From IMG/VR virus record IMGVR_UViG_3300034280_001150, positions 1 through 21,002 of that record: a DNA stretch of 21,002 nucleotides; one strand, given 5' to 3'. Made by a program: the position numbers and the translations under genes. The notes under the pieces were generated by a model. That model was not told where the DNA came from and did no database searches. It saw nothing but the letters and a program-made list of their open reading frames with translations. How positions within the stretch are numbered: position 1 is the first letter of the stretch; each line of letters begins with the position of its first letter. Source of the stretch: a virus. Positions 1 to 15,740 of this stretch are shown here, in pieces.

Positions 1-510
1 AAAAAGGGATGGTATCAAGCCATTAGTGATTTAATCCCAGAAATGCAGGATTGTGAGCTTGCGGACTGGCAGATTAAGCGATTGAATGAATTGGGATATT
101 TGCCAGAAAAAGCCTTGATTGATATTGGTAAACAACTCATTAGACAGGCTACAGTTCGGGAGTCAAACGATCCAAGTTTTACTATCGTAGGGGGTCACTG
201 TAATTCCCATTCTCCCATCCTATTAATCCCCCGTGCGGGAGCCTGTATTAAGAACATTTTACCGACTCCACAAAACAAGCCTTGTCCAACAATTCGAGCT
301 ATGGCGGGTGTTTCGACCCATTGGGCGGACATCGTACAGGGAAGTCAAATCAAACGGATTAGTCAAAAAGCGACGGCACGGCTCCAGACTTTCCCCGACT
401 CCTATCAATTCCCAGAATCCAAAACTTTAAGCCAACAAATAATAGGAAACGCCGTGCCTCCGTTATTGGCTAAAGAATTAGGTCTGGCAATCTTAAAATC
501 AATTAACTAA
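1..510 (+). CDS. C5 cytosine-specific DNA methyltransferase, C-terminal part (5' end outside window)
   Basis: The frame is open from the first base, so the gene starts upstream and only about 169 C-terminal residues are visible; the ATG at 43 is internal. The visible part matches the end of Dcm-type enzymes, which transfer a methyl group from SAM to carbon 5 of cytosine. A PCPTIRAMAG segment is followed by a motif IX-like stretch (KATARLQTFPDSYQFP) and then motif X (QQIIGNAVPPLLAKELG), the helix that completes the SAM pocket. The catalytic PC and ENV motifs would lie upstream, so activity cannot be judged. The segment between PIL and the QTFPD block is short, consistent with a compact phage or orphan enzyme. 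The next gene starts 2 nt after the stop, so the two are probably co-transcribed. A phage orphan methylase usually protects the genome from host restriction; the target site cannot be read from this. Confidence 0.9.
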   Translation, partial: KKGWYQAISDLIPEMQDCELADWQIKRLNELGYLPEKALIDIGKQLIRQATVRESNDPSFTIVGGHCNSHSPILLIPRAGACIKNILPTPQNKPCPTIRAMAGVSTHWADIVQGSQIKRISQKATARLQTFPDSYQFPESKTLSQQIIGNAVPPLLAKELGLAILKSIN

Positions 511-3029: not shown

Positions 3030-4166
3030 GTGACTCAGAAGAAAGCACCCAAGGGAAGCGTACAGGTCAAAACTACCATCAGTTCTGCGGGGGTGGGGTG
3101 GCTCCGGCTGGTTTGGAGTCACCAGGGCAAAAGATATTTTTTGAGCTTGGGATTGGAGGATAACCCCCTAAATCAGATGGTGGCACAACGGTTGGCTTTG
3201 CAGATTCAAGGGGACTGCGCCACGGGAAACTTTGATAGTTCCCTAACCAAGTACAAGCCACAATCAGAAATGGAAGTTAAACAGGCGACGGTTTCAGTTG
3301 TCGGATTAGTTGAACGGTATTTGAATTACAAGCAACAACAGATTGAATCAGAAACGCTTTATAAATACAATCATTTCTTGCCCAGGATTAAACAATATTT
3401 TGGTAATGATAGCCTGACTGAAAAATCCGCTTTTGGCTTTCGTGATTGGCTGCTACAACACAACGAACCCGCCACAGTTAGGGAAAGAATTGTATTCTTA
3501 AATGCTGTTTATGAGTGGGGTATTAAGAAGCAATTAGTTGAGGTCAATCACTGGACTGAGGTATCGGTAAAAGTTCCCCCAAAAAGAAGATTAAAACCTT
3601 TCTCAATTGAGGAAATCAAACGGATTTTAGAAGGGTTTGCAACGGATCAATATTATTCCCATTTTCTCCCCTACGTTGAGTTTTTACTGGGTACAGGTTG
3701 CCGCCCGGGTGAAGCAAACGGGCTCCAATGGAAACATTTCTCAGAAGACTGTGGAGAGGTTCTAATAGCCTGTAAATTAACGGTATCCGGTGAGCGGAAA
3801 TCGACTAAAACTAATCGTGATCGCTTAATTCCACTTCCCCCTCGCCTTCAAAATATTCTCAAAGCAATCCGTCCGATTGACCCCGACCCGGAGGCTCCGG
3901 TTTTCGTCTCCTTGACTGGATTGCCAATTGATTCCCACAACTTCAGGAATCGGGCATGGAAACAGGTTTTAGCTAAGGTTGGCGTGGAATATAGAAAGCC
4001 CGGAAACTGCCGTCATACTCTGATTTCCCACGGGTTATCACAAGGGAAAAGCCCTGCTGAAATGGCAGAACTCGCAGGGAATAGAATTGAGACTATTTAC
4101 AATAATTATGCTGGGAGCGTGATCCACCGACCATCTTTACCAGTATTGCTCCCAGATGACGAATAA
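3030..4166 (+). CDS. int: Tyrosine-type site-specific recombinase (phage integrase)
   Basis: 378 residues starting at GTG. Order: an N-terminal arm-binding domain (about 1-75, with GWLRLVWSHQGKRYFLSLG resembling the DUF3596-type domain of cyanobacterial integrases), a SAM-like core-binding domain (about 88-185) and a C-terminal catalytic domain. Catalytic residues: Arg225 in GTGCRPGEA, a Lys in the KSTKTNRDR loop (K257 or K260), Arg328 in NCRHT and Tyr360 in IYNNYAG. The two usual His positions are changed: HxxR reads GNCR, and the LGH motif reads AGN (Asn351). The second change recurs in this cyanobacterial integrase group, so it does not imply inactivity. The enzyme would recombine attP (2863-2908) with a host tRNA-Pro gene. 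No Shine-Dalgarno is seen; the start abuts an inverted repeat. Confidence 0.93.
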   Translation: MTQKKAPKGSVQVKTTISSAGVGWLRLVWSHQGKRYFLSLGLEDNPLNQMVAQRLALQIQGDCATGNFDSSLTKYKPQSEMEVKQATVSVVGLVERYLNYKQQQIESETLYKYNHFLPRIKQYFGNDSLTEKSAFGFRDWLLQHNEPATVRERIVFLNAVYEWGIKKQLVEVNHWTEVSVKVPPKRRLKPFSIEEIKRILEGFATDQYYSHFLPYVEFLLGTGCRPGEANGLQWKHFSEDCGEVLIACKLTVSGERKSTKTNRDRLIPLPPRLQNILKAIRPIDPDPEAPVFVSLTGLPIDSHNFRNRAWKQVLAKVGVEYRKPGNCRHTLISHGLSQGKSPAEMAELAGNRIETIYNNYAGSVIHRPSLPVLLPDDE

Positions 4167-5858: not shown

Positions 5859-5884
5859 AAGACCTCTAATTCAACTTAAAACTA

Positions 5885-5912
5885 ACCAGGGAATATAAAC
5901 CCCTGGTTTTTT
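5885..5912 (+). terminator. Rho-independent terminator between convergent genes
   Basis: ACCAGGG (5885-5891) pairs with CCCTGGT (5901-5907), followed by a T run to 5912. It ends the plus-strand operon just before the 3' end of tmk on the other strand. Confidence 0.8.
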
Positions 5913-5917
5913 GCTGT

Positions 5918-6514
5918 TTATCTAATCACAGGGACAGGAATAATCCCCATCAGAATGCCAGATATTTCCTGAAACATTCGCGTAGTTGTTTGCGTTGCGT
6001 CAATTATAATCCAGTTATTTTGCCTAGCCAATTCCAGATATCCGAAGCGAACCCGATCTAAAAAAAGCAAGTCTCGTTCAACCTTGTCCAGAGGTTTGTC
6101 GAGATCGCGGCGCACCGCCACCTCAACAGGACAATCGAACAAAATCACCATATCGGGATCAATTCCCCCCGTTGCCTCGTGATTTAGCTTCCTTAAATTA
6201 TCTAAATTAAGCCCGTGTCCATATCCCTGATAAGCAAGCGTTGAATCCGTGTATCGATCGCACAATACCAAATCAGAATCTTCTAACAAATATCTAATCG
6301 TGGGATTGTGTTTAATCCTATCCTTCAGGATTAATTTAAGCTGCTGCTCCGGTGTCAAAAGCCCATTCTTTAATTCAAACCGAACGTCATAATCACAGGG
6401 TTCTCTTGTGATGTAAAACTTTAACTTTAACGCCGTGAAATGATCATAAAGTTTTTTAACTTGAGTGGTTTTGCCACTGCGGTCAATACCTTCAAAAGCA
6501 ATCAATTTACTCAT
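5918..6514 (-). CDS. tmk: Thymidylate kinase (dTMP kinase)
   Basis: Phosphorylates dTMP to dTDP with ATP, supplying dTTP for phage replication. From the ATG at 6514 (198 aa): P-loop GIDRSGKTT (9-17), the REP motif of the dTMP site (37-39), DRYTDSTLAYQGYG (86-99) with the DRY catalytic motif, and a LID-like segment near DKPLDKVERD. The length is normal for the family, so it looks intact. The frame can be opened at a TTG (6529), but an in-frame TAA lies just before it and the ATG at 6514 overlaps the nblA-like stop (ATGA) with GAGG upstream, so I choose the ATG. It is the second gene of a two-gene minus-strand cassette in a plus-strand region. Host enzymes have the same motifs; the phage context makes it an auxiliary nucleotide gene. 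Confidence 0.93.
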   Translation of the reverse strand: MSKLIAFEGIDRSGKTTQVKKLYDHFTALKLKFYITREPCDYDVRFELKNGLLTPEQQLKLILKDRIKHNPTIRYLLEDSDLVLCDRYTDSTLAYQGYGHGLNLDNLRKLNHEATGGIDPDMVILFDCPVEVAVRRDLDKPLDKVERDLLFLDRVRFGYLELARQNNWIIIDATQTTTRMFQEISGILMGIIPVPVIR

Positions 6515-6675
6515 TTCATCCTCATCCAATTTTTAATCAAATCATCTTTAATCATACTCTGTTTTACTAATTCAATAATATGCTCCTTAGCTTGTTCCAA
6601 AGTTAGGTTGTCAACATCTCGCTTAATTATTGCGAGTTTGAATTGTTGCTCGGTTGTTAGTTGTATGGGTTGCAT
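6511..6675 (-). CDS. nblA: NblA-like phycobilisome degradation protein
   Basis: A 54-residue protein beginning MQPIQLTTEQQFKL, continuing VDNLTLEQAKEHIIELVKQ and ending SMIKDDLIKNWMRMK. NblA proteins are about 55-65 residues with the pattern QPIxLSLEQQF ... LSxEQAxxxLVxLxxQMMVKxxxxxxLLK, and this follows it throughout. NblA binds phycobiliproteins and brings them to the Clp protease, dismantling the antenna. The L-x-K near its C terminus (L46, K48) corresponds to residues I recall being linked to phycobiliprotein binding. AAGGA lies about 9 nt before the ATG; the TGA overlaps the tmk ATG (ATGA), so the two are coupled. NblA is known from several freshwater cyanophages. The usual HQWG-like end is lost, so the protein is slightly short. 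Confidence 0.85.
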   Translation of the reverse strand: MQPIQLTTEQQFKLAIIKRDVDNLTLEQAKEHIIELVKQSMIKDDLIKNWMRMK

Positions 6676-6758
6676 TTGTTTGATCCTTTAATTGGTTGGT
6701 TTTGGACTATATTACCTCTGGACATCGCAATACTATAGAGAGTTGATTCTATATATAG

Positions 6759-6764
6759 ATTATA
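6759..6764 (-). promoter_or_regulatory. Candidate -10 box for the nblA-tmk cassette
   Basis: On the minus strand TATAAT lies next to a 12-bp palindrome TCTATATATAGA (6748-6759). The -35 region is poor, which suggests an activator or a phage-modified polymerase. The leader before nblA would be about 75 nt. Confidence 0.35.
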
Positions 6765-6824
6765 CCCAGAAATAGTTGTTTTGTATCCGCCTGATACAGA
6801 ATTAAAAATAGTTTGTTTTACCTG

Positions 6825-6853
6825 TTGACACCTGTTGATGTTTTGTGTAGTAT
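6825..6853 (+). promoter_or_regulatory. Sigma70-type promoter for the gene at 6898
   Basis: TTGACA (6825-6830), a 17-nt spacer, TAGTAT (6848-6853). A direct repeat ACCTGTTGA (6820-6828 and 6830-6838) straddles the -35 box and could be an operator. Confidence 0.6.
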
Positions 6854-6897
6854 TGGAAAAGTAGACAGCAGCAATCAACGCATAGAGGACAAACGCC

Positions 6898-7326
6898 ATG
6901 ACAACCGCAACCGTAACCACAGCAACCCAGTTGATTGAAAAAATCAATTCTGAAGAAGAAGAATTAGTCATACTCTTTTTTAATCTCCCTGAGATTCATA
7001 AAGATTTTCAAATTGAGGGGGTTGTTCCCCTGACCGATAACTGGCAAATTGTTGCCACGACACAGTCGGTAGTAAACAAAATTAATCCGGCTGAAAACCG
7101 GAAGTCGGGATGGTTTGACATCCTAGAGAAATACGTCCCCGAAGATCAGTGGAACCTGTCCGCTGATGACCAGGACTACCCGGTCACTTGGTACCCTGTA
7201 GTACCGTTCGACTGTTGGTATATGACCGACAAAACTTTTTACCAGCAAGCCACATCTGCGGCCCTGGAAATCTTGAAGGGGCTCAAGCCCGATAAAGTGC
7301 CAGAGTGTTATCTGGACTTAGTTTAA
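6898..7326 (+). CDS. Unknown 142-aa protein
   Basis: GAGGA precedes the ATG and a good promoter lies upstream. The N-terminal 20 residues are threonine-rich, followed by an acidic patch (NSEEEELVILFF). The C-terminal half is rich in Trp, Tyr and Pro (YPVTWYPVVPFDCWYMTD), suggesting a globular domain. No family recognised. The tRNA-like element starts 10 nt after its stop, so it may be cut from this transcript. Confidence 0.7.
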   Translation: MTTATVTTATQLIEKINSEEEELVILFFNLPEIHKDFQIEGVVPLTDNWQIVATTQSVVNKINPAENRKSGWFDILEKYVPEDQWNLSADDQDYPVTWYPVVPFDCWYMTDKTFYQQATSAALEILKGLKPDKVPECYLDLV

Positions 7327-10152: not shown

Positions 10153-11499
10153 TTAAGCCACGTCAAACAAACTTAATTGCTTAAATTCCGGTTGCTTTAG
10201 TTCCATAATTTCTAACTCTGTTTCTGAATATTCCCTGGGTTGGGAGATGCGATCGCAAGCTATATCAAAGTATTCCTTTTCCTTCTCGATACAAATATAG
10301 TTACGTCCCAATTCTTTGCAAGCCACCGCAGTTGTGCCACTGCCACAGAAGGGATCTAAAACCGTTCCATTCTCAGGGGTAATCAAAGTTATTAAATATT
10401 TCATCAGATGACGGCTTTTGACTGTGGGATGAGTGTTTGCAATTTCTCCACTGTTTGACCTGTCACTAGGAGATGCCTTGGCTTGGTAATAGACGCTAGG
10501 GATGGTTTCGGGGTCAAAGGGGAGTTGCTTAAAGAATCGGGCGGCGGTTCCTATATCACTATGTCCGAAAGTGGTGTGAGCATATTCTTTTCCCTTAGCA
10601 ACACTTTTAAAGTCGCTGTTATTTCTTGGTCTATCACTACTCACACTAAATCCACTTTGCTCACCAATGACCGTCACCGGACAGTCATGGCTATGATTCT
10701 CGCCTTTACAGTTGGCTCCACAGGATAGGATTAAATTGGCGGGGTAGCGACCTGTTGTTCCGTATTTTGCTGCGTTATTTTCTCCGTCCCCATAAGTTCC
10801 CCATGATGCTGTATTATGATTTAGTCTAGCCAAGTTATCATCCGTCCCAATCCGACACGCCTCAATATTCAAACCACCAACCCCATGTTTTAGAATATTT
10901 CTAGCAATACTTGACTCACTGATAGGCTTCTGTACCAACCACCAACCCTCAACGGCTGGCTTCAGTGCTGGAGTTTTCCAACCGTCGTATTGTTTTGCTT
11001 CATGTGTTGCGGGTGCTGTTAGAATACCCGCGTCACCACTGCCTAACCTAGAGTTTTGCTGTTCAGGGTTGAAGTCGCTATTAAAAGCATATTTATAACG
11101 TTCACCTTGTTTTCTCCCTACGACTTCCCTCTCAGCCCCATAAATAGCGTCTATATGCTTACTAATATCCTGTGATTTTGGAAAGCCGCTACCAAAGCAG
11201 TGGTGAACACAATCAATTAATCTAAACCCTGCTAATTCTAAAGCCATTCCTGTCCAGTGAGAAGTACGGGGTAAAGACCAAACCAAGCCACACGCTCCGG
11301 GCTTCATTACCCTTAAACATTCCGCCATTATTTCAGATAGCCAATTAATCCAGTTAAGCATACCCCCTTTATTATGGTCAAAATCCTTATTCATAAAGCT
11401 AATTCCTGCGGGCGGGTCACTTATTAAACTATCAAAATAATTATCAGGAATATCCTTTAAAACTTCAAAACAATCACCGTGAATAATTTGATTAAGCAT
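10153..11499 (-). CDS. DNA methyltransferase, N4-cytosine / N6-adenine type (beta class)
   Basis: Transfers a methyl group from SAM to an exocyclic amino group in DNA. The N terminus reads MLNQIIHGDCFEVLKDIPDN, then catalytic motif IV as SDPPAGISFM (about residues 27-36). The SAM motif I comes late, VLDPFCGSGTTAVACKELGR (about 380-399), followed by NYICIEKEKEYFDIACDRI. Motif IV before motif I marks the beta class. The DPPA form instead of DPPY recurs in phage enzymes. The long middle part with several Cys and His (CGANCKGENHSHDC) should hold target recognition. I prefer M at 11499, the usual family start; an ATG at 11517 adds six residues but lies only about 12 nt from a TATAAT box (11529-11534). 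No cognate endonuclease is adjacent, so it is probably an orphan anti-restriction or regulatory methylase. Confidence 0.92.
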   Translation of the reverse strand: MLNQIIHGDCFEVLKDIPDNYFDSLISDPPAGISFMNKDFDHNKGGMLNWINWLSEIMAECLRVMKPGACGLVWSLPRTSHWTGMALELAGFRLIDCVHHCFGSGFPKSQDISKHIDAIYGAEREVVGRKQGERYKYAFNSDFNPEQQNSRLGSGDAGILTAPATHEAKQYDGWKTPALKPAVEGWWLVQKPISESSIARNILKHGVGGLNIEACRIGTDDNLARLNHNTASWGTYGDGENNAAKYGTTGRYPANLILSCGANCKGENHSHDCPVTVIGEQSGFSVSSDRPRNNSDFKSVAKGKEYAHTTFGHSDIGTAARFFKQLPFDPETIPSVYYQAKASPSDRSNSGEIANTHPTVKSRHLMKYLITLITPENGTVLDPFCGSGTTAVACKELGRNYICIEKEKEYFDIACDRISQPREYSETELEIMELKQPEFKQLSLFDVA

Positions 11500-11528
11500 A
11501 ATAATATTAATTGCCATTACCTATTTAT

Positions 11529-13766: not shown

Positions 13767-15740
13767 TTATGCTCCTATTAATCCGTGAGTTGTCAAATCA
13801 TCAATCAACGCTTTTACTCTTTCAGCTAATTGTGGAAGAGTGACGGTTGACGTGGCAAAAGTTGTGCGGGTTGCAGTTCCCGTTGGCGCTACCCATCCGG
13901 TTCTTCTAGTAGAAATAACCTGGGTTGCGTTTAAAGACAAAGCACCTCTGAAAAAGTTATTGGTAATATTTGAATCACCAAAAGACATCGTATTTGAGCC
14001 GTTTCCGGTAGCGTTACAACCAAAAACGTTCTCATTGGTTGCGTTTTGGGTTCCTTTTGTCGATGCACCTATAAAACAAGAGTTGTTGGTAACAGAAATT
14101 TCTGTTACACCGTCAGACTGAAATCTTCCTGCATTATCACCAAAGGCGGAGCAGCTACTACCTGTGGTATTAGCCCTGAGTGAATAAGCACCAAAGGCGG
14201 AGCAGTTAGTGCCTGTGGTATTAGCCTGGAGCGAACCAGCACCAAATGCGGAGCAGTTAACCCCTGTGGTATTAGCCCTGAGTGAACTAACACCAAATGC
14301 GGAGCAGCTACTACCTGTGGTATTAGCCCTGAGTGAATAAGCACCAAAGGCGGAGCAGTTAGTGCCTGTGGTATTAGCCTGGAGCGATTCAACACCAAAG
14401 GCGGAGCAGTTACTACCTGTGGTATTAGCCAGGAGCGAACTAACACCAACGGTCGTATTTGAACTTACCTCCCCTGCTCCCCTCCCGACAGGAATTAGAT
14501 TATAGGAATTAGCACTTATGGTATCCGCAAAAATAGCCCCCGTAATTCCCAAGCTAGCCGCACGAATCGCACCCGTTGTGGGACTGGTAGAAGTTGTTGC
14601 ACTGGTTGAAACTAAGTCACCTGTTACAGTTCCACCGGACAAGGGTAGGTAAGCTGCGGGTAGTCGGGCAGCATTCAAGGTTCCGGTTGAAATATTAGAA
14701 GCATTTAAACTGGTTAATGCTTCTCCAGAGCCAACATAGCCAGTAGCAGTAACTGTTCCTACCACATCAAGTTTAGTAGTAGGTGTAGTTGTACCAATTC
14801 CAAGACTTCCCCCATTCAAATAAGAATTTCCAGAAGCGGTGAGTGAAACAGTTGGTACGTTTACTGAACGAAGGGTCAAAGTTCCGATGTCATTTGTCGC
14901 GCTTGACCCCTGTAACTGAGCAACCGTAAACGCACCATTGGACACAGCAAAACCATTAAATTGATTGCTGCTGACGACAATAGCAACCCCCCCAACATTA
15001 ATAGTATTTGCAAAAATAGCACCCGTAATTCCCAGGGACGCACCACGAATCGCGCCCGTAGTGGTAGAAGTTGATGCAGTGACACTGGTTGAAATCAAGT
15101 CCCCCGTTACTGTCCCACCCGTTAGGGGAAGGTAAGAATTAATATCAATTGAATAAGTCCCGTTCCCTGTTTTCTTGAGAAATCCTGGGGTGTCAGATAA
15201 TGCCTGAATTGCAATTAATTCATTCCCTATACTATTAGTCGAAACCGCAGTTACTTGACCTTTGGCGTTAACAGTGACAACAGGAATAGCACTGACACTA
15301 CCAAAACTGCCAACATTGCTATTGACTGTCTGCAACGTCATCACACCCGAAACGTCAGCACTCCCATCGAAACCACTAATCGAACCAGTTATATCCCCCG
15401 TCGTTGAAATTGTCCGGGCATTTGTTAGTTTTAACGCCTCCCCCGCCGTTGCCGAGCTTGATATTTCAACATAAACAGAACCCGACCATCGGTAGGTTTT
15501 GTTGTTATCTTCGGTGACATAAATTTTGCCAGTCTCACCCGCAACCGGAAACGTTGCAAGGTTAGCAAAATTCAAGACATCATCAACATAGGATGGCAAA
15601 ACCGATGCTGAAATTGTGCCAGTCGCGGCGTTAACAGCCGTTAAGATTGTATTATTGGAAGTTAATGATTTTGTGAAACTGGCAACCGTTGGATCGGTTT
15701 CAGCTGTAATCACATTCCTAATTAATTGTCCAACGCCCAT
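13767..15740 (-). CDS. Tail-fibre-like / trimeric adhesin-like virion protein
   Basis: 657 aa, rich in Thr, Ser, Gly and Asn and poor in charged residues, as in trimeric beta-structured fibres. Residues 62-93 (GETGKIYVTEDNNKTYRWSG) form a segment common in phage fibres. A block of about 45 residues is duplicated (203-247 and 364-408, both with GGTVTGDL and SLGITGAIFA). Residues 435-536 are six 17-residue repeats of the type SLxANTTGxNCSAFGxx, like the head repeats of YadA-type adhesins. The C terminus (LPQLAERVKALIDDLTTHGL) is a helix I associate with cyanobacterial and cyanophage fibres. GGGGG precedes the ATG. It should mediate host recognition. A Cys in every repeat is unusual for an extracellular fibre. 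Confidence 0.85.
   Translation of the reverse strand: MGVGQLIRNVITAETDPTVASFTKSLTSNNTILTAVNAATGTISASVLPSYVDDVLNFANLATFPVAGETGKIYVTEDNNKTYRWSGSVYVEISSSATAGEALKLTNARTISTTGDITGSISGFDGSADVSGVMTLQTVNSNVGSFGSVSAIPVVTVNAKGQVTAVSTNSIGNELIAIQALSDTPGFLKKTGNGTYSIDINSYLPLTGGTVTGDLISTSVTASTSTTTGAIRGASLGITGAIFANTINVGGVAIVVSSNQFNGFAVSNGAFTVAQLQGSSATNDIGTLTLRSVNVPTVSLTASGNSYLNGGSLGIGTTTPTTKLDVVGTVTATGYVGSGEALTSLNASNISTGTLNAARLPAAYLPLSGGTVTGDLVSTSATTSTSPTTGAIRAASLGITGAIFADTISANSYNLIPVGRGAGEVSSNTTVGVSSLLANTTGSNCSAFGVESLQANTTGTNCSAFGAYSLRANTTGSSCSAFGVSSLRANTTGVNCSAFGAGSLQANTTGTNCSAFGAYSLRANTTGSSCSAFGDNAGRFQSDGVTEISVTNNSCFIGASTKGTQNATNENVFGCNATGNGSNTMSFGDSNITNNFFRGALSLNATQVISTRRTGWVAPTGTATRTTFATSTVTLPQLAERVKALIDDLTTHGLIGA
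14133..14438 (-). repeat. Six 51-bp tandem repeats inside the tail-fibre gene
   Basis: Each unit encodes 17 residues (SLxANTTGxNCSAFGxx). Units 2 and 5 are almost identical, as are 3 and 6, so the array probably grew by doubling a three-unit block. Recombination could change repeat number and thus fibre length. Confidence 0.85.

Follow-up and report, generated by a model that had tools for sequence, protein, structure and literature searches.

The window considered here is the whole stretch of DNA that was analysed, i.e. 21,002 nucleotides corresponding to positions 1 to 21,002 of the IMG/VR virus record IMGVR_UViG_3300034280_001150. It carries on its minus strand two overlapping genes, nblA and tmk, accompanied by several putative expression signals:

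6511..6675 (minus strand): nblA, 54 aa, phycobilisome proteolysis adaptor (Pfam PF04485, structure-profile matches, AlphaFold)
5918..6514 (minus strand): tmk, 198-aa thymidylate kinase (Pfam PF02223, 124.8 bits)
6511..6514 (minus strand): ATGA shared by the nblA stop and the tmk start, kept in 34/34 IMG/VR loci and in PaV-LD
6520..6523 (minus strand): GAGG, probable ribosome-binding site of tmk, within the 3' end of nblA and 5 bases upstream of the tmk ATG
6684..6689 (minus strand): AAAGGA, probable ribosome-binding site of nblA, 8 bases upstream of its ATG
6759..6764 (minus strand): TATAAT, candidate -10 of an nblA-tmk transcript, kept among upstream haplotypes
5884..5908 (minus strand): terminator-like hairpin 3' of tmk (9-bp stem, then a T-rich tail)

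The NblA proteins are generally small helix-loop-helix adaptors that bring phycobiliproteins to ClpC (PMC7966870, PMC4103541). The 54-aa ORF that the first-pass annotation assigned to this family is indeed present, with the residues that had been quoted, and the Pfam search that had been proposed to verify it is positive, PF04485 (NblA) giving 51.1 bits for a cut-off of 25 (E 1.8e-13). The similarity had been said to run from end to end, which is accurate since residues 5-52 of the protein align with positions 1-48 of the 50 positions of the profile. The protein also matches, by sequence profile, the solved NblA 1OJH (from Anabaena), 2QDO, 2Q8V and 3CS5, the match with 1OJH being full-length (E 4.8e-19), and conserves L6, E9, Q10, F12, L14 and A29, the residues that do not vary in the viral set. 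The AlphaFold monomer is predicted to consist of a helix (8-22), a loop and a second helix (26-53), with a mean pLDDT of 91; a Foldseek search of the PDB with this two-helix model, which is short, gave no significant match. The record encodes only one NblA.

Both nblA and tmk are under purifying selection. For nblA, dN/dS is 0.06-0.14 against 14 of 15 relatives, the exception being L004, for which dS is only 0.07. These low values and the recurrence of the ORF, its length and its ATGA junction in all 34 IMG/VR loci indicate that nblA is more than a chance ORF. In PHROGs, the protein belongs to phrog_23930, labelled 'unknown function', and therefore an annotation relying only on PHROGs would miss it. 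The gene had also been considered short enough to be missed by length cut-offs, but the copy of the cyanophage PaV-LD was not missed, as it is annotated in the record of this phage. Other candidates around nblA were rejected. An 83-aa ORF (6440-6691, plus strand), antisense to nblA and tmk, is considered spurious as it crosses two conserved genes, and so is a 104-aa ORF upstream of nblA (6657-6971, minus strand), which overlaps the beginning of the 6898-7326 ORF in antisense and crosses the candidate promoter. A genome contig scan with the window NblA gave a single match, in a Desulfuromusa MAG, which covers only 26 residues and was also judged spurious.

The match of the window Tmk to PF02223 (Thymidylate_kin) spans positions 1-185 of the profile, and both a P-loop (FEGIDRSGKTT) and a DRY motif (CDRY) are found. 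The gene starts at the ATG at 6514, inside the ATGA at 6514-6511, so that the overlap reported by the first-pass annotation is borne out; a TTG start at 6529 was set aside because the ATG at 6514 has a ribosome-binding site at the usual distance. In the upstream haplotypes that were compared, a TATAAT occurs at the position equivalent to 6759..6764 or only a few bases away, although the surrounding sequence differs. It is unproven as a promoter element, since the promoter scan found no good -35 upstream of nblA, and the hairpin is unproven as a terminator, since the terminator scan found 4 such sites for 1.7 expected. Both are consensus matches and not proof. Globally, the TATAAT, the putative tmk ribosome-binding site internal to nblA and the hairpin fit a single nblA-tmk transcript, whose existence is probable.

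The window is matched by PaV-LD over 36% of its length (10 pieces, 91% identity), and the gene order is mostly colinear, with flanking genes that differ in part. On these grounds, the window phage is placed within the PaV-LD group, which supports the kinship with freshwater cyanophages that had been proposed, and its host, deduced from this shared DNA and gene order, is probably the bloom-forming cyanobacterium Planktothrix. In PaV-LD (NC_016564), ORF022L is annotated as 'phycobilisome degradation protein nblA' and ORF021L as a thymidylate kinase, so that the pairing is already public; a limited literature search found no work treating nblA and tmk as one unit. The pair of the window is therefore known in kind rather than new: its identification is correct and its novelty modest. 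As for the suggestion that the pairing is unusual, it holds against cyanophages at large but fails within the PaV-LD group, where nblA and tmk are regularly paired. Related tmk genes occur in Nodularia, Nostoc and Anabaena phages that are absent from the records matching the window NblA. PaV-LD-type nblA has also been reported in metagenomes of Lake Erie (PMC10343443).

The rest of the window encodes diverse functions. A tyrosine integrase (3030-4166, plus strand) is annotated in PaV-LD too, and members of the PaV-LD group may thus integrate. A protein with a Bro-N domain, akin to phage anti-repressors (17802-18638, plus strand; Pfam 40 bits, phrog_8036), and two DNA methylases are also encoded: a C5-cytosine methylase (43-510, plus strand, 155 aa), truncated close to the start of the window and matching the profile at its C-terminal end only, and an N6/N4 methylase (10153-11517, minus strand, 454 aa). 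A 657-aa structural protein (13767-15740, minus strand; phrog_3018, head decoration) contains repeated NTTGxNCSAFG-type units, which create long open frames in the complementary strand as well. Searches of the window found no tRNA and no Rfam family.

The conservation of the pair was examined by a scan of IMG/VR, which recovered 34 nblA loci, all ending in ATGA, although many of these contigs are near-identical. Wherever the DNA continues, nblA is followed by tmk (33/33) and, reciprocally, nblA precedes all of the 15 type-B tmk genes that have upstream DNA. Among 31 loci compared, including PaV-LD and the window, 17 distinct upstream haplotypes are found. The main neighbours of the pair lie on the opposite strand in the window, in PaV-LD and in the other loci inspected, so that nblA-tmk constitutes a self-contained two-gene unit, and the genes located beyond it vary from locus to locus, a layout reminiscent of cargo regions. 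Some relatives do without the pairing: L058, which is related to the window phage, carries nblA and tmk 2.2 kb apart in one record, and L088-L092 have a solo tmk without nblA at the locus.

The pair itself is mosaic. Between the window and L010, nblA has 31 differences over bases 1-117 and only 1 over the 45 bases 118-162, and tmk has 12 over 594 sites; Fisher's test of the 5' part of nblA against tmk gives p 3.9e-17. The comparison with L005 gives the opposite pattern, with 19/117 differences in the 5' part of nblA and 267/594 in tmk; for L003, the values are 6/117 and 162/582. In line with these site differences, the nblA and tmk gene trees disagree. The breakpoint lies near base 117 of nblA (window versus L010, L023 and PaV-LD), and the last 45 bases of nblA, which include the GAGG, follow tmk. 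Several tmk types are thus joined to several nblA types, always via ATGA. What is new here is that the pair is kept together throughout the group while its halves reshuffle between phages.

This location of the breakpoint suggests that an exchanged tmk must bring its own ribosome-binding site, the end of nblA coming along, and that a separation of the two genes would break one of them. The two genes could therefore act independently and be held together mechanically. Besides the behaviour of the last 45 bases, such a retention would agree with the solo tmk of L088-L092 and the unlinked tmk of L058, which indicate that the genes can live apart; however, recombination has repeatedly joined varied nblA and tmk types with order and overlap unchanged, and a free drift might predict more solo forms in the group. 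Mechanical retention appears nearly as likely as shared timing of expression, to which about an even chance is given as the reason for the pairing, and it is compatible with both antenna degradation and a single transcript.

A sister group has lost nblA at this locus. In L088-L092, the place of nblA and of the first part of the type-B tmk is taken by a solo tmk of another kind (about 202 aa), and the 3' part of the type-B gene persists downstream as a relic ORF of 76-79 aa. Three records of this group (87, 98 and 57 kb), devoid of standard nblA, encode elsewhere a 71-aa NblA-like protein, found in PaV-LD-type records at the following positions:

L096:2001-2213 (plus strand): loop-inserted NblA-like protein, 71 aa
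L094:2090-2305 (minus strand): loop-inserted NblA-like protein, 71 aa
L095:1659-1874 (minus strand): loop-inserted NblA-like protein, 71 aa

The loop that joins its two helices is longer by about 12 residues; AlphaFold places these helices at 12-34 and 43-69 (mean pLDDT 87), and the protein scores 29.7 bits for a cut-off of 25. It is encoded by 11 IMG/VR loci with 99-100% identity, and a search of the phage collection with it gave no match. Standard and loop-inserted NblA occur together in none of the records searched; a mutual exclusion of the two kinds is only suggested, because several of these records are fragments and they are related to each other.

According to the reading that is preferred here, to which a probability of about 0.75 can be given, nblA-tmk is an isolated bicistronic cargo unit of PaV-LD-type cyanophages that would combine antenna proteolysis and dTTP supply, coupled for timing. 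A host-type promoter upstream of nblA would drive the synthesis of one nblA-tmk mRNA ending at the hairpin located after tmk. NblA would bridge phycobiliproteins and the ClpC protease system of the host, leading to the dismantling of the antenna; the loss of the latter would decrease the absorption of excess light and free amino acids. The tmk gene would be translated from the shared mRNA, either through re-initiation at the ATGA or through the ribosome-binding site that it has in the end of nblA, and Tmk would phosphorylate dTMP for phage DNA synthesis. Antenna degradation by the window NblA is very probable. We infer the single transcript, the timing and the benefit of the pairing; the coupling would most likely serve shared timing of expression rather than a direct biochemical link.

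The window NblA could also have lost the binding of phycobiliproteins and have another role, such as that of an adaptor for a different Clp substrate. Indeed, little of the protein remains beyond the region of the C-terminal binding motif, to which Leu51 and Lys53 of Anabaena NblA belong, and these positions are aligned with Trp50 and Arg52, respectively, in the window protein. However, the last 14 residues are identical in the window and PaV-LD proteins, and the latter is reported to cause phycobilisome loss: PaV-LD nblA is said to degrade phycobilisomes in Synechocystis PCC 6803 and to be expressed in the course of infection while the phycobilin content falls, as cited in PMC4103541 and PMC9602691. 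A loss of binding is thus very improbable, and antenna degradation is retained as the probable role of the window NblA.

In several groups of phages, nblA lies near genes of dNTP metabolism. Besides tmk in the PaV-LD group and nrdA/nrdB in Ma-LMM01, ThyX and dUTPase genes are located at most 5 genes after two tandem NblA ORFs in L060 (2977-3368, plus strand; 56.8 and 27.9 bits, the second being divergent), and a dNMP kinase is encoded a few genes downstream of nblA in L059. Antenna breakdown directly supporting the synthesis of DNA precursors, as one co-selected programme, would account for these associations. However, early phage regions are rich in dNTP genes, L061 has no such gene near nblA in the DNA viewed, and dTMP phosphorylation is not fed directly by the release of amino acids, all of which makes this programme quite unlikely. 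Shared timing of expression would account for the pair no less well than a metabolic link, and so would the mere mechanics of the overlap. Given this richness of early regions and the small number of independent lineages, the proximity of nblA and dNTP genes constitutes a lead only. S-TIM5, in which a distant nblA is present according to others, gave no match to the Pfam NblA profile. More broadly, cyanophages might repeatedly and independently have put nblA in or beside dNTP clusters as one selected programme, the loss of tmk-linked nblA being offset by loop-inserted NblA elsewhere, but this wider proposal is doubtful.

The pairing lends itself to a testable idea, namely that phages time the digestion of the antenna with the synthesis of DNA precursors. 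Furthermore, the nblA-tmk unit of PaV-LD is not a one-off but a group-wide conserved, although recombining, cassette, which supplies many natural nblA alleles for tests against phycobilisomes. The analysis also brought up the divergent loop-inserted NblA, which is matchless in the phage records searched.

The fold predicted for the window NblA is the helix-loop-helix of the cyanobacterial proteins (1OJH, 2QDO, 2Q8V and 3CS5), from which it differs by a shorter C-terminus, by being encoded by a phage and by its pairing with tmk. In the Microcystis phage Ma-LMM01, NblA (MaLMM01_gp005) is 33% identical to that of the window. As in the window, nblA is near a dNTP gene and overlaps it as annotated: nrdA is followed by nblA, and nrdB is found three genes on. 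This nblA-nrdA overlap was already remarked (PMC4103541). Unlike in the window, the partner is a ribonucleotide reductase and not tmk, and the Ma-LMM01 genome has no Pfam tmk. The closest counterpart is the pair of PaV-LD, which displays the same order, the same 4-base overlap and the same orientation opposite to its neighbours. NblA is 78% identical between the two phages and Tmk about 90%, and the DNA differs at 32 of the first 117 bases of nblA against 45 of 582 in tmk, a recombinant pattern here too.
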